Assembly (NCBI RefSeq): GCF_009734445.1
Contig: NZ_CP046457.1
Span: 930,001-994,000 of the forward strand
DNA: 64,000 nucleotides
Reading direction: 5' to 3'
Origin: Candidatus Syntrophocurvum alkaliphilum
GTDB taxonomy: Bacteria > Bacillota > Syntrophomonadia > Syntrophomonadales > Syntrophomonadaceae
Below the pieces are notes generated by a model. That model was not told where the DNA came from. It did not search any database and saw nothing but the letters and a program-made list of their open reading frames with translations. Shown piece after piece: positions 31,613 through 41,942 of this stretch. The first letter of the stretch is position 1; each line of letters begins with the position of its first letter. The position numbers and the translations under genes were made by a program.

Positions 31613-31820
31613 AAAAACTCTCTATCCCTAAAGGGACGAGAGTTATTCCCGCGGTACCACCCTAATTGAACAATGCCCAACTTAAACCAATAACGGCTGG
31701 TTACCGTCCGGCTTATTCACCGGCACTCACAGGTGGCATTCATCAAAGTACTGTTGCCGGTTTTCAGCTACCCCAGCTCTCTGGAAACAGTTCCTATGAT
31801 TACTAGTCTGTTCATCGTTT
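31613..31820 (-). promoter_or_regulatory. T-box leader, probable alanine specifier
   Basis: On the minus strand this has all T-box parts. AGTA at 31801-31804 begins the specifier-loop 5' side. The conserved AGAGAG and apical loop follow. The T-box sequence AGGGTGGTACCGCGG lies at about 31649-31663. The terminator is ACTCTC-TCCC/GGGA-AGAGAGT plus seven T (31611-31643). The specifier loop 3' side reads GAA-T-GCC-A, which by the common layout makes GCC (31735-31737, alanine) the codon matched to uncharged tRNA. ATCA/TGAT pairing just above supports this register. It controls the Lrp gene and the aminotransferase. Confidence 0.93.
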
Positions 31821-31967
31821 TACATTTAAGATTTGTATTATCCTATCACTATCAGAAGAAACAGTCAAGTTATTAAAAATATTATCTACAAAAGTAAAGT
31901 TTTTCAAGAACTATTTTTCAAATTAATGCATATTATTACTCTAGAATTTTATTTGGAGGTGCTTTAT

Positions 31968-35678: not shown

Positions 35679-35753
35679 TGGGATGTAGCCAAGTGGTAAG
35701 GCAACGGACTTTGACTCCGTCATGCGTTGGTTCGAATCCAGCCATCCCAGCCA
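35679..35753 (+). tRNA. tRNA-Gln (anticodon UUG)
   Basis: The acceptor stem TGGGATG/CATCCCA, anticodon stem ACGGA/TCCGT with loop CTTTGAC (anticodon TTG), the GTTCGAATC T-loop and an encoded CCA are visible. Confidence 0.97.
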
Positions 35754-35858: not shown

Positions 35859-35934
35859 GGGCCATTAGCTCAGTTGGCAGAGCACCTGACTTTTAATCAG
35901 GGTGTCCCAGGTTCGAATCCTGGATGGCTCACCA
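35859..35934 (+). tRNA. tRNA-Lys (anticodon UUU)
   Basis: The acceptor stem GGGCCAT/ATGGCTC (one G-U pair), anticodon arm CCTGA-CTTTTAA-TCAGG (anticodon TTT), GTTCGAATC T-loop and an encoded CCA are visible. Confidence 0.97.
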
Positions 35935-36648: not shown

Positions 36649-37658
36649 TTGAAACGCCTATCTTATAAGTTAATGCTTTATTTTGGTTCACTTTTGGCTG
36701 TAATGTGCCTTAGTTTAATATTAATAGTTTATATTAATGTTTCTGATACTTTAGTTTCTGATGCTGAAGAGGATGTTATGGTTAAGTCTCAGCTTGTGTC
36801 TCAAATCATATCTACTGGCATGGAGAAGCATGTAGTAACAGTAGAACAAACTGCTTCTTTGGTTAGAATAAGAAGCATGGATTGGGATGTTCAACAGCCG
36901 TTATTGCAAGAGGAAGTAGAGCGTCACCAATTAGCACAACTCGGAGTAGTAACAGCTGATGGTATAGCAAGATTTAACGATGATACAACTGCAGATATAG
37001 CAGATAGGGATTATTTTCAAATTGCACTTAGAGGTGAATCTAATTATGCAGACCCAATTGTAAGCAGAATTGATGAATTCAATAGTTATACCAGTTGCTA
37101 GTCCAATAAGAGATGAAAGTAATAATGTTATTGCGGTTCTTTTAGCTATTTTGCCAATAGAATTTTTAGGTGATATTACTAATAGTATTCATGCAGAAGG
37201 TGACTCTTATGCATAATCATATTATAGAAAATTTGAAAGTATTATCTTTAATGCACGATATCGGGAAAATAGCCATTTCTGATTCTATATTAAATAAACC
37301 TGGAAGATTAAATAAAAAAGAATGCTTTGAAATGAAAAAGCATACTGAAATAGGACACCGGATAGCTGAAGTTACACCAGAATTTTCTCATATTGCACAC
37401 GAAAGATTTGATGGTAAAGGTTACCCACAAGGTTTAAAGGGATTATCAATCCCTCTAGAATCGAGAATTTTGGCAATAGTGGATGCTTATGATGCCATGA
37501 CTAATGACCGTGCTTATCGAAAAGCAATGAGTTGTAAAAAAGCTATTCAAGAAATAACAAAAAATTCTGGAACACAATTTGATCCTTTATTAGTAAAAGT
37601 TTTTACTGAAACAATTATAGATGAAAAAAAAACACCTAAAACAAGGGAGTATCCATAA
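36649..37658 (+). pseudogene. Broken Cache-domain / HD-GYP sensor gene
   Basis: The 5' part (36649-37101) encodes a membrane helix and a dCache-like sensor domain similar to the receptor at 42209 (shared VRSMDW and ADRDYFQ-type motifs). At about 37080 the frame shifts; the other frame continues IPVASPIRDESNNVIAVLLA to a stop at 37214-37216. A third piece in a new frame (from about 37200 to 37658) is the C-terminal part of an HD-GYP phosphodiesterase: LMHDIGKIAI, HTEIGHRIAE and HERFDGKGYP. The section between sensor and HD-GYP is missing. The gene has therefore suffered one frameshift plus an internal deletion. HD-GYP enzymes hydrolyse cyclic di-GMP; this copy cannot make a normal protein. Confidence 0.85.
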
Positions 37659-37975: not shown

Positions 37976-39664
37976 TTAATATTTAAACTTTTTAATTTGT
38001 TCTTGCATATCTTCTGCTAATTTAGCAAGGCCCTGTGCTGCATTTGCAATTTCTTGAATTGAGGCTGTTTGCTCCTCTATAGATGCTGCAGCTTCTTCTG
38101 TACCTGCTGCATTCTCTTGTGCTATAGCTGATAAGCTTTGGATTACTTCTATAATTTCGTTTTTCTTTTGCTCCATTTCTACTCCTGATGCATTTAGTCT
38201 TTCTATAGCTTCTTGAGTGTTTTCTATAGCCCCAGCAATACCTTCAAATTTGCCTTTGGTATCAGTTACACTAGCAGTTTGCTCATCAACTATAGTTTTA
38301 ACTCCTTCTACAGTTTTTACTGCTTTGTTTGTTTTACTAGAAAGATCATTTATTATTGATTCTATCTCTTGTATAGAGTCATTAGATTGTTCGGCTAGTT
38401 TTCTTACTTCTTCAGCAACTACCGCAAAACCCTTACCATGTTCACCTGCTCGTGCTGCCTCAATTGCTGCATTTAGAGCTAGAAGATTTGTTTGATCAGC
38501 TATACTTTTTATAACTTCACTAGCTGTTTTAATTCCTTCTGCACTAGTATTAGTTTCTTGTATTACATCATATATTTCATCTGCTGCTTCATTGTTTTGG
38601 TTTGCTTTAAGTACTAGAGTTTCAAGTGTTTCAAATCCTTCGTCTTTTAGTTTATTTACTTCATCAACCGTTTGGTTTACTACTTGAACATATTCTTGTT
38701 CTTTATCCATTATATTACCTAGTTCATCAATTTTAACAGCCCCTTGCTCAGTACTTTTAGCTTGATCACCAGCTCCTTTTGCCATTTCTTCTATGCTTCT
38801 AGCCACTTCATTTGCTGTTGTAGATGTTTGATCACTAGTTGCAGTCATTTCCTCTGAGCTTGTTGCTACTTGCTCAGAAGCTTTTGATACATTCTTTATA
38901 GTTCTTCCTATATTTGAAGTAATTTTTTCAATCGCATTTGCAATTTTTCCTATTTCATCTTTTCTTTCTAAATATTCAGGAGGTATTTCTGCTTTGAGGT
39001 TTAAATTAGATACTTCTTCAGTATATCCCACAATGTTATCAATTATCTTGCCAAGTTTTATTGTAACTATATAGACACCTACAACAACTATAACAAATAT
39101 AATTGCTAAAAATATACCTATATCTCTTTGGGCTGAAAATGCTACTGAACGTATTTCATCATTGCTAATTCCCACAAACCACATTCCAATAATATTTCCA
39201 TATGTATCTTCAATGGGAGTGTAGATTGTAAAATGAGATTCACCAAGTATATCGGCTTCACCAACAAAAGTTTCTCCATCAACTAATACACTTTGTGCTA
39301 CTTCTGATGAAACTTGGGTGCCAACAGCTCTGTTTCCATTTTCCATAACATTTGTAGATATTCTAGTATCATCTAAAAAAACAGTTGCCAAAGAGCCCGT
39401 CGCATCTCTTAGGCTATCTACTAATTCAGTATCATTGTTAATCAGATGTTCTCCTTTATAAAGCTGTCCATCTCGTACTTCCCACTCACCCGGATACATA
39501 ACATCTGCTAAAGTAAGTCCTATGTTGCTATCGGAATTTAATTTATCCTCAACTAATATTGATTGAATTGCATTACTGCTCATAATAAACATTCCTATAG
39601 CAATTGTAAGCACTACTGCTATACTAAAAAATAGCAGACGTTCCTTTAGTCCTAAATTTTTCAT
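37976..39664 (-). CDS. Methyl-accepting chemotaxis protein with single Cache domain
   Basis: A 562-aa receptor. A membrane helix (about 10-30), an extracellular sCache-type domain (about 35-180, with [18 protein letters not shown]), a second helix (about 183-205), HAMP (about 205-260) and a long coiled-coil signalling domain with the hairpin tip [16 protein letters not shown] are seen. The signalling part from about residue 265 is almost identical to that of the receptor at 42209, while sensor domains differ. The start follows GAGGAGG. It ends FKY without a CheR-binding pentapeptide. Confidence 0.95.
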
Positions 39665-39682
39665 AACATACCTCCTCGTATA

Positions 39683-39727
39683 ATATGTTTAGTTCCACTT
39701 TTGAAATGGCCTAAACATATTTTTTTA
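39683..39727 (+). terminator. Hairpin with T-run upstream of the IS110 region
   Basis: ATATGTTTAG/CTAAACATAT (39683-39692 with 39711-39720) is followed by seven T. It could stop plus-strand transcription into the IS, or fold in the 5' leader of the receptor gene on the other strand. Confidence 0.5.
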
Positions 39728-39737
39728 TTTTATTTAA

Positions 39738-39962
39738 GATATCCCAGTGCTAATCTATTCATAAGAACGATTGGCGAAGGAAAATTCTTCCTCTCCTTGC
39801 AAAACCTAAACGGTTATTGCCAATAAAGCGTGCTTCCTGACTTAGTTGCCATATTCTGCTTACTCAGATGCTGCATCCCTTTGACTAGCCAGCAGCAAGG
39901 TATTTTTCAAAGGTGAATGCTAATAATGCGAGGTTGCAGTCAGCTTCTAAGATTGGGATATC
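39738..39962 (+). ncRNA. Candidate IS110 bridge RNA region
   Basis: GATATCCCA at 39738-39746 pairs perfectly with TGGGATATC at 39954-39962, enclosing several hairpins: ATTGGC/GCCAAT, GGAA/TTCC and CCTTTGA/TCAAAGG. IS110-group elements encode a bridge RNA in the left non-coding end whose loops pair with donor and target DNA. Position and structure fit. I could not identify the binding loops, because the insertion boundaries are unknown. Confidence 0.5.
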
Positions 39963-40012
39963 TCCTTTAATAATTGTTCCACCATTATCTTCCTATGAAA
40001 GGTGGTGATTTG

Positions 40013-41287
40013 ATGAAGAACAATGTTCTATCAACTTTATTCGTTGGTATTGATGTTAGTTCAAAAACCAATGTTTTGTGTGCTCTTGATTTTCAAGGTA
40101 ATAAACTCCTAAGTTTAAAGACTCAAAATAATCAACCAGGTGCTGAAGCTATTTTAGATAGTATTGTTACTTGTTTAAATTCCAATGGCTTAAAATATGT
40201 GGTTATAGCTTTAGAATCAACCTCATTTTATAGTACTCATATTGCTAATTTTCTTTCCTCTAACCAAGACTTATTGTTTTTTAAGCCTCTAGTCTACTGT
40301 CTTAACCCTAAGTCTGTTGCTAATTACAGAAAATCTTTTGTTGATATGAATAAGACCGATCCGTTAGATGCTTTTGTAATTGCCGACTTCGCTAGAGTTG
40401 GTCGAATTACTTGCAAACCTTGGCGCGGCGCTCAGTTTCTTGCTTTGCAAAGACTTTCTAGGCATAGACTTCATTTGGTTGAATGTATTACCAGAGAAAA
40501 AGCGTATATGGTTTCTAATATTTATTTAAAGTTTAGTGAGTTGGCTGTTTTGGATAAAGATAACAAGCCTTTTTCTAATACCTATGGCACTACTTCTGCT
40601 GCTGTTTTAACTGAATTTTTATCTCTAGACGATATTACTTATTCTTCTATTGATGATCTTGTAGCTTTTGTGTCTGCTAAGGGTAAGAATCGTTTTGCTA
40701 ATCCTTATGAGACCGCTAAGCTACTGCAAAAAGCAGCTAGAGATTCTTATCGTTTAGATAAAATGTTATATGAGCCTTTAAACACCTCAATTGCTTCTTC
40801 CTTTAATATAATTAAGGCCTTCGAAGATGAAATAAAAACTATTGATAAAGCTATTACAAAAACTATTAAAGGTCTTAATACTACAGAGTATCAATCTCTT
40901 ATTTCAGTTCCAGGCATCGGACCAGTGCTTGCTAGCGGTATTCTTGCCGAAATAGGTACTATTTCTTCCTTTGACTCTCACGATGCTTTTGCTAAATATG
41001 CTGGTCTTACCTGGAGAGTAAACCAATCTGGAAACTATTCTGCTGATGATACTCGTATGACTAAAACTGGTAATAAATATCTAAGGTATTACTTAATCGA
41101 GGCTGCAAATAGCGTTAAGAACCATGTGCCTGAATACAAAGATTTTTACCTTAAAAAATATAGTGAAGTAACTACTCACCAACACAAAAGAGCACTCGCA
41201 CTTACATCGCGTAAATTAGTACGTCTGATTTTTGGCTTGCTGACTAAAAATCAAATTTACTCCAGCAATAAAGTTGGAGAAGTTTAA
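40013..41287 (+). CDS. IS110-family transposase (DEDD recombinase)
   Basis: A 424-aa protein. The N-terminal RuvC-like DEDD domain shows FVGIDVSSKTN, ALESTSFYS, and NKTDPLDAFVIADFAR. The C-terminal Tnp domain shows SVPGIGPVLASGILAEIG, FAKYAGL and the Ser region NQSGNYSADDTRMTKTGN. I start at the ATG at 40013, just after GGTGGTG; the frame continues 13 codons upstream from a TTG. The gene appears intact. Confidence 0.95.
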   Translation: MKNNVLSTLFVGIDVSSKTNVLCALDFQGNKLLSLKTQNNQPGAEAILDSIVTCLNSNGLKYVVIALESTSFYSTHIANFLSSNQDLLFFKPLVYCLNPKSVANYRKSFVDMNKTDPLDAFVIADFARVGRITCKPWRGAQFLALQRLSRHRLHLVECITREKAYMVSNIYLKFSELAVLDKDNKPFSNTYGTTSAAVLTEFLSLDDITYSSIDDLVAFVSAKGKNRFANPYETAKLLQKAARDSYRLDKMLYEPLNTSIASSFNIIKAFEDEIKTIDKAITKTIKGLNTTEYQSLISVPGIGPVLASGILAEIGTISSFDSHDAFAKYAGLTWRVNQSGNYSADDTRMTKTGNKYLRYYLIEAANSVKNHVPEYKDFYLKKYSEVTTHQHKRALALTSRKLVRLIFGLLTKNQIYSSNKVGEV

Positions 41288-41304
41288 TTAAAATCTTCCT
41301 TCCT

Positions 41305-41337
41305 AACCTATTTTTTTTGTTGCAAAACGATAGGTTT
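41305..41337 (+). terminator. Possible terminator after the IS110 transposase
   Basis: AACCTA/TAGGTT arms enclose a T-rich loop; a weak hairpin 18 bp after the stop codon. Confidence 0.5.
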
Positions 41338-41471
41338 AATTTGTGTTGCCCTTTTTTAAATAAACGATTAGTTTTCTTTAAAATTTGTGTCTTGACATAT
41401 TACCAGATTGCTTAATATATTTATTAATTTCTTTTCACTTTTGTGTTGAATCTTTTAATTGCAAAAATCAT

Positions 41472-41942
41472 CTAATTTATTTTTGCTAACTCTTCATTTT
41501 CTATTTTGTTAAAAACATTTTCTAGTTCTAGTAGAACAATTAATCTTTTATCTACTTTAGCTATACCATTTATATAATCACTACTGACACCACCTATAAC
41601 ATCAGTAGTTTCTTCTATGTTTTCTGCCGACAATCTTAAAACTTCTGAAACTTCATCAACAATAACTCCTATAAAGTTCTCATTTAAGTTACAAACAATA
41701 ATACGGGACTGATCAGTTAGTTTGCTTTTTATATTAAAAAAACGTTTTTTAAGATCAATAATTGGAATTACATTTCCACGTAAATTAATTATACCTTCAA
41801 CAAAATCAGGCATCTGCGGCATTTTAGTTATCTCTAATAATCTATTAATTTCTTGAACTTTTTCTATAGATACTCCATATTCAATTTGATCTTTATCGAC
41901 AAATAACGAGAAAACAACAACTTGTAATTCTTTTTGACTCAT
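41472..41942 (-). CDS. cheW: CheW-like chemotaxis adaptor
   Basis: This 156-aa CheW protein has EYGVSIEKVQEINRL, VEGIINLRGNVIPIIDL and GVIVDEVSEVLRL. It is about three-quarters identical by eye to the CheW at 44254, which lies on the other side of the receptor gene, so the pair looks duplicated. The ATG has GGGGTGGAGGG upstream. It lies downstream of the receptor with a terminator between. Confidence 0.93.
   Translation of the reverse strand: MSQKELQVVVFSLFVDKDQIEYGVSIEKVQEINRLLEITKMPQMPDFVEGIINLRGNVIPIIDLKKRFFNIKSKLTDQSRIIVCNLNENFIGVIVDEVSEVLRLSAENIEETTDVIGGVSSDYINGIAKVDKRLIVLLELENVFNKIENEELAKIN

Follow-up and report, generated by a model that had tools for sequence, protein, structure and literature searches.

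IS621 of Escherichia coli, the bridge RNA prototype, has a REP-type sequence as its target. RNA guidance was established by the IS621 and seekRNA work (PMC11208160, PMC11187229), and these two papers mention neither IS900, an IS110-family element of Mycobacterium avium subsp. paratuberculosis, nor start codons as targets. IS900 was the subject of a 1997 report by Doran et al. with the title 'IS900 targets translation initiation signals...' (PMC8141618), and its genome-wide target motif is CATGNNNNNNTCTCCTT (PMC8141618). In this study, an IS110 element was analyzed in a 64,000-nucleotide (nt) stretch of the Candidatus Syntrophocurvum alkaliphilum genome (NZ_CP046457.1, positions 930,001 to 994,000; hereafter the window, to which unprefixed coordinates refer). 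The left target guide predicted for this element is an anti-Shine-Dalgarno sequence, and the element and most of its relatives, down to about 40% transposase identity, insert, as judged from their flanking sequences, in a Shine-Dalgarno sequence roughly 10-12 nt ahead of a start codon.

Among open papers, none was found that links IS900 targeting to a bridge RNA or to a whole Bacillota clade, and no relevant paper was found tying bridge RNA or IS110 elements to the Shine-Dalgarno sequence, an earlier description elsewhere being possible. Since no such earlier link was found, the element is filed as an IS110-group bridge-RNA element, of which the new part is the fixed anti-Shine-Dalgarno programme. 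As a whole, the element is best explained as an autonomous, IS621-type insertion sequence of the IS110 group with a bridge RNA, whose transcription and binding by the recombinase are predicted; we give this explanation a probability of roughly 0.88.

Ends, core and copies of the element

The limits were determined by comparison with a second copy in the same complete genome (copy B; C1:56293-58035, minus strand) and with relatives of the element.

39675-41412 (+): complete IS110 element including the CT core on either side (39677-41410 without the cores), delimited by the second copy and by 30+ relatives in which the ends CTCGTATAAT.../...TTGACATATTACCAGATTGCT are constant and the flanks vary
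39675-39676: left core dinucleotide CT, the final two bases of CCTCCT (the Shine-Dalgarno complement); an Enterococcus faecium relative has it once where the site is empty and at each end where it is occupied
41411-41412: right core dinucleotide CT, on the same basis (E. faecium empty/occupied comparison and relatives)
41413-41420: right target flank TAATATAT, read from the sequence

The window copy (copy A) and copy B are 99.8% alike over window positions 39658 to 41414 and have different flanks. Among relatives whose proteins are 78-93% identical, the inner ends are constant, reading CTCGTATAATATG at the left and TTGACATATTACCAGATTGCT at the right, and the flanks vary. In the E. faecium relative the empty site reads TTTCCTC-CT-AAACAAATGG, with an annotated ArdC start codon, and the occupied site reads TTTCCTC-CT-CGTAAAAT on the left and CCATTAGA-CT-AAACAAATGG on the right, which indicates that the CT core is shared and that there is no further target duplication. 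Assignment of CTC-CT to the element rather than to the target was ruled out by flank variation (CAC, CCC, CTCC, GTCCC) and by the empty sites.

A sequence-only reading of the window had placed the element at 39728-41340, about 50-70 bp too narrow on each side given ends at 39675/39677 and 41410/41412. It had proposed that other copies or an empty site would fix the ends and the core; the second copy and the relatives did so, the empty sites being found in relatives. No IS110 elements other than the two copies were found in this genome, which therefore offers no same-genome control. Scans of viral contigs yielded one full relative and loose right ends, and 37 of 398 sampled Bacillota genomes carry this insertion sequence group at E <= 1e-80.

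Placement at Shine-Dalgarno sequences

39662-39674 (-): left target, comprising the chemoreceptor start codon (CAT at 39662-39664 on the plus strand) and GAGG of its Shine-Dalgarno sequence; AGGAGG is intact across the junction (39676-39671)

On the opposite strand, the targets of both copies have the form TA-AG-GAGG-N6-start. The target gene of copy A encodes a chemoreceptor (ATG at 39664) and that of copy B an ABC-transporter ATPase (GTG, L002 3237). Insertions were scored by a start-codon rule that required an initiation codon, with its frame open, at a distance of 6-14 nt from the core. By this rule 23 of the 29 insertions with a readable left flank in the discovery set lay at start codons, mostly at exactly 10 nt. 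A held-out set at 39-54% identity, consisting of a further sample of the phylum and additional copies and drawn once the start-codon pattern had been fixed, gave 36 of 47 under the same rule. A first pass over the held-out set had given 26/35 with a shorter left-end search range, which was widened because copy-to-copy comparison showed longer left ends. The background in the window was 10.4% of CT positions and 31 of 79 CTCCT[TA] sites; binomial probabilities against 10.4% were 6e-18 (discovery) and 2e-26 (held-out).

Shine-Dalgarno insertions were always in a single orientation, with the left end toward the gene. Where records are annotated, the gene to the left runs divergently, and in the majority of records its annotated start codon is 11-12 nt away from the core; such left neighbours include a MerR regulator, ArdC, an AbrB-type protein and hypothetical proteins. 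This placement extends over clostridial relatives to 55% identity and over elements of Bacilli and Enterococcus plasmids at 43-45%. In a 27% identical element (L008), TTAAATTACTC-CT adjoins ATG and the loop reads GAUCACUC-CU.

Several insertions have further features of their own. L047 and L056 (genomes G302 and G304) concern the same small sugar-transporter gene, the Shine-Dalgarno sequence of which is struck in one genome; in the other, the insertion is apparently at CTCCTC-CT within the coding sequence, a site that is empty in the first genome. The target of L018 (near 2150; see also the L043 upstream region) is the Shine-Dalgarno sequence of a gene that appears to encode a further IS110-like transposase (ATGAATTATAAACAAAATG...). 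In each of the four copies read from two genomes (L043, L055, L046, L056), the end of another IS110-like element (ATCGTAYCACAGGAAG) adjoins CTCGTATAAT on its left, as if a second element targeted the left end of the first or both moved together.

Match between target guides and targets

39788-39797 (+): left target guide UUCCUCUC-CU (anti-Shine-Dalgarno), from own versus swapped targets in relatives (0/50,000 permutations)
39820-39828 (+): right target guide CCAAUAA-AG, complementing core and right target, from own versus swapped targets (22 to 157/20,001 permutations by length)
39915-39921 (+): candidate left donor guide GAAUGCU (right end GATTGCT), suggested by position and one-mismatch identity; constant in close relatives
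39922-39932 (+): candidate right donor guide AAUAAUGCGAG, a gapped complement of the left end CTCGTATAAT, suggested by position and complementarity

The segment preceding TGCAAA, which is the left target guide, reads the same letters as the left flank and core, and NNNNNAG preceding C(A/G)TGCTTCCTGACTTAG complements the core and right flank. For 19-20 clostridial insertions, the left guide matched its own target better than swapped targets, with 0/50,000 permutations as good at both 5 and 6 positions, and for 12 Bacilli insertions 9-22/50,000 were as good. In the two groups together, 5.25 of 7 positions were matched, compared with 4.04 +/- 0.16 for swapped targets (0/50,000). For the right guide, between 22 and 157 of 20,001 permutations with swapped targets were as good, according to the length compared. 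When guides and targets of the held-out set were compared by an alignment-free test, the result was 0/20,000. A match between loops and flanks had been put forward by the sequence-only reading as a check of its bridge RNA proposal; the own-target match beyond chance in the relatives lends support to that proposal, and the point it had not seen is that the guide specifies the Shine-Dalgarno sequence.

Individual elements with divergent guides have correspondingly divergent targets: UUUCACCC-CU with TTTCACCC-CT (L013), CCUGCCC-CU with CCTGCCC-CT (L093), CAACUC-CU with CAACTC-CT (L052) and CCUCUCC-CU with CCTCTCC-CT (L074). A Priestia element with the guide UCUUUCUC-CU is found at a number of different sites; all except one end in TCTC-CT, as its guide does, and most lie 11-12 nt from an annotated start codon. 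With regard to avoidance of the 16S rRNA 3' end by the guide (T rather than A at -5), AGGAGGT and AGGAGGA were both common, in samples too small for a conclusion.

These variable bases bear on the possibility that the recombinase itself reads the Shine-Dalgarno motif in DNA and that RNA does not set the target. The CTC-CT motif core is common to nearly all members, so that much of the recognition could be by protein; however, positions -4 to -7 track the loop of each element (CACCC, CCCC, CAACTC, CCTGCCC, CCTCTCC), and target choice is RNA-programmed in the IS110 elements that have been studied (PMC11208160, PMC11187229). We consider protein reading barely credible as the explanation.

Survivorship is a stronger competitor, although on balance still rather unlikely. 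Weakly specific insertion at many CTCCT-like sites, of which only non-coding insertions persist, would produce a Shine-Dalgarno bias. The information in the guide is low, the genome has about 600 CAT-N4-8-CTCCT sites and far more CTCCT sites, and the start-codon fractions of 79% and 77% compare with 39% at sequence-matched window sites. Survivorship nevertheless leaves the guide-target covariation and the choice of motif unexplained, and it can add to a guide-based account without replacing it.

A number of observations weigh against the guide-based account as well. By the start-codon rule, 6 of 29 discovery and 11 of 47 held-out insertions are not at start codons; among particular cases, the L017 insertion lies in a repeat, which its guide also fits, and the L056 site is inside the sugar-transporter coding sequence. 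The guide of the window element fits the copy A target modestly, with matches at -1 to -3, a wobble at -4 and mismatches at -5 to -7; at the copy B target it also matches at -5, and the fit is still partial. The donor-guide assignment rests on constant sequence, in which no covariation is possible among close relatives, and the left donor guide of the Bacilli relatives matches their right end poorly.

Structure of the predicted bridge RNA

39736-39965 (+): predicted bridge RNA body, closed by 39738-39746 with 39954-39962, from fold and covariation
39683-39720 (+): 5' stem-loop ATATGTTTAG...CTAAACATAT followed by a T-rich run, from the fold and from a compensatory change of ATATG/CATAT to CTATG/CATAG seen by eye in L015 and L018

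The perfect pairing that had been noted from the sequence as closing a 225-nt segment left of the transposase was confirmed as GATATCCCA (39738-39746) with TGGGATATC (39954-39962). The RNA from 39736 to 39965 folds at -66.9 kcal/mol, compared with -52.3 +/- 4.7 for shuffled sequences (z -3.1; 1 of 200 shuffles as good). In the RNAalifold consensus of 18 relatives, 97.3% of cells were paired and 16 pairs were altered on both sides, whereas shuffles gave 6.1 +/- 1.3 such pairs and none of 500 reached the observed number; a shift of the pairing partner by one column lowered the paired cells to about 42%. The outer closing stem has compensatory changes of U-A to C-G and of A-U to G-C. Along the RNA, the outer stem is followed by a small hairpin, the left target guide, the hairpin GCAAAACC...GGTTATTGC, the right target guide and finally the donor loop. 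The RNA was without a match in Rfam, which was searched with gathering cut-offs on the window and relatives and in E-value mode around the element.

The position of the folded region, which belongs to the 5' untranslated region of the transposase gene and stops 50 nt short of its start, would also suit a regulatory leader of the transposase mRNA, similar to the ISPpu9 small RNAs and without a guide role. The covariation of loop and target over more than 70 insertions and the IS621-like layout, with the target loop first and the donor loop second, argue against this interpretation, which we regard as very improbable, and in favor of a bridge RNA.

The left-end hairpin together with TTTTTTTATTTTATTT (39683-39730) is terminator-like and lies directly 3' of the predicted junction promoter described below; it may be an attenuator of bridge RNA synthesis or the 5' stem-loop of the RNA itself. 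Five elements (L045, L050, L051, L017 and L024) have an extra 150-200 nt between the 5' stem-loop and the bridge RNA body, forming a long hairpin with AGGAGGCGTAGCCGACTG...GAAGATTC. No Rfam match was found there in the four of these five carriers that were scanned, and the insert may be a small hitchhiking repeat inside the element.

Transposase, joined ends and proposed mechanism

40013-41287 (+): IS110 transposase/recombinase of 424 amino acids (aa), DEDD and Transposase_20 domains, with its own Shine-Dalgarno sequence AAAGGTGGTGAT upstream, from Pfam and a structure match
41392-41397 (+): -35 box TTGACA at the right end, for joined ends, with a 17-bp spacing to TATAAT/TATACT in 31/32 elements
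39679-39684 (+): -10 box TATAAT at the left end, from the same joined-ends comparison

The original assignment to IS110 was borne out by Pfam matches to PF01548 (1.5e-28, 100 bits, cut-off 29) and PF02371 (6.8e-24, 84.5 bits, cut-off 21.3). The IS621 recombinase structure 8wt6 was matched at an E-value of 3.3e-9, with ETS, NKTDPLDA and GLTWRVNQSG aligning to IS621 motifs, and in the 424-aa product the motifs that hold the DEDD residues and the C-terminal serine region match those of the IS621 and ISCro4 recombinases of solved structure. When the right and left ends are joined in silico, TTGACA-17-TATAAT is obtained in 31 of 32 elements (TATACT in three); the joined ends thus recreate a predicted sigma-70 promoter.

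A mechanism that would connect these observations follows the IS110 elements that have been studied for its circle, transcript, RNA-protein binding and recombination steps. The element would excise as a circle, the joined ends of which would form the sigma-70 promoter, and from this junction promoter the left-end non-coding region would be transcribed as the bridge RNA, followed by the gene for the recombinase. Of the two loops of the bridge RNA, one would pair with the joined ends as donor; the other, which includes the left target guide (C)CUC-CU and the short right target guide, would pair with a Shine-Dalgarno sequence in the DNA of the host. After recombination at the CT core, the element would lie directly upstream of AGGAGG and have its left end toward the gene; the gene would retain its Shine-Dalgarno sequence, spacer and start codon while its own upstream region moved ~1.74 kb away.

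Effect on neighboring genes

The element had been described from the sequence as sitting between chemosensory genes without breaking them. This holds for the coding sequences, but the insertion point falls within the ribosome-binding region of the chemoreceptor gene on the left (start at 39664, AGGAGG at 39676-39671, minus strand). On the strand of the gene the cut separates AG from GAGG, and since the element brings in AG again with its left end, the AGGAGG sequence, the spacer and the start codon are preserved; the upstream region of the target gene is displaced by about 1.74 kb. The neighbors of copy A, a CheW-like gene (41472-41942) and the chemoreceptor gene (37976-39664), are both on the minus strand and look like one operon split in its intergenic gap, and a permease-ATPase operon is split likewise by copy B. 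A search of the left end for an outward sigma-70 promoter that could drive the target gene found none; therefore, insertion likely causes polar loss of expression unless transcription reads through.

Elsewhere in the window, 36649-37658 (+) contains a truncated chemoreceptor N-terminus followed by an HD-GYP-like fragment, apparently the remains of decayed genes. Rfam matches identified a T-box leader (31629-31824, minus strand) and two tRNA genes (35679-35750 and 35859-35931, plus strand). A pemK RNA motif (RF02913) is present at L024 5753-5832, on the same viral contig as a copy of the element.

Implications

Bridge RNAs were described in 2024 as programmable guides; at this locus, nature appears to have fixed the programme on the signal that stands before most genes, rather than on a repeat or a single locus. 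This offers a mechanism for the older observation of IS900 at translation-initiation signals, predicts the landing sites of a common Bacillota insertion sequence group, and provides many natural recombinases with short, tolerant left guides for comparison. Insertions of this kind keep proteins intact but cut genes off from their promoters, and in annotation they look harmless. A broader idea, which we consider improbable and offer only as speculation, is that a large natural clade of bridge-RNA elements is permanently programmed with the anti-Shine-Dalgarno sequence of the ribosome. Such a target would be present in almost every host and safe from mutational loss. By excising precisely and re-inserting just ahead of an intact AGGAGG, the element could switch or rewire expression with the gene undamaged, and the guide itself might be under selection not to hit the 3' end of 16S rRNA.

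Comparison with known systems

IS900 has the same target layout, CAT-N6-CTC-CT-T, with start codon and Shine-Dalgarno sequence, and is mostly found outside coding sequences; the likeness is one of target motif, and a guide RNA basis is absent from the published text found (PMC8141618). IS900 also has a long opposite-strand frame, hed, which is said to depend on host signals, whereas no minus-strand open reading frame of at least 80 aa was found within 39974-41287.

IS1111-type elements and their seekRNA (ISEc11, ISEc21) share RNA-guided target choice and a DEDD transposase with the present element (PMC11187229). However, IS1111 members have their RNA at the right end and subterminal inverted repeats, while here the structured region is at the left end and only ~120 nt separate the transposase stop from the right end.

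The IS110 elements of Enterococcus, Priestia and other Bacilli (43-45% identity) have the same Shine-Dalgarno placement, the CT core, a CTCGTA left end and a TTGAC...ACC...CT right end; they differ in the donor sequence of the right end (CAGGTCT, CAAGACT, TTAGACT) and in their longer non-coding regions.

The likeness to IS621 includes the DEDD/serine recombinase, a left-end bridge RNA, target guides around a CT core and a joined-end promoter (PMC11208160). Compared with IS621, the target here is the Shine-Dalgarno sequence, a 12-bp outer stem closes both loops, and the recombinase is about 100 aa longer.
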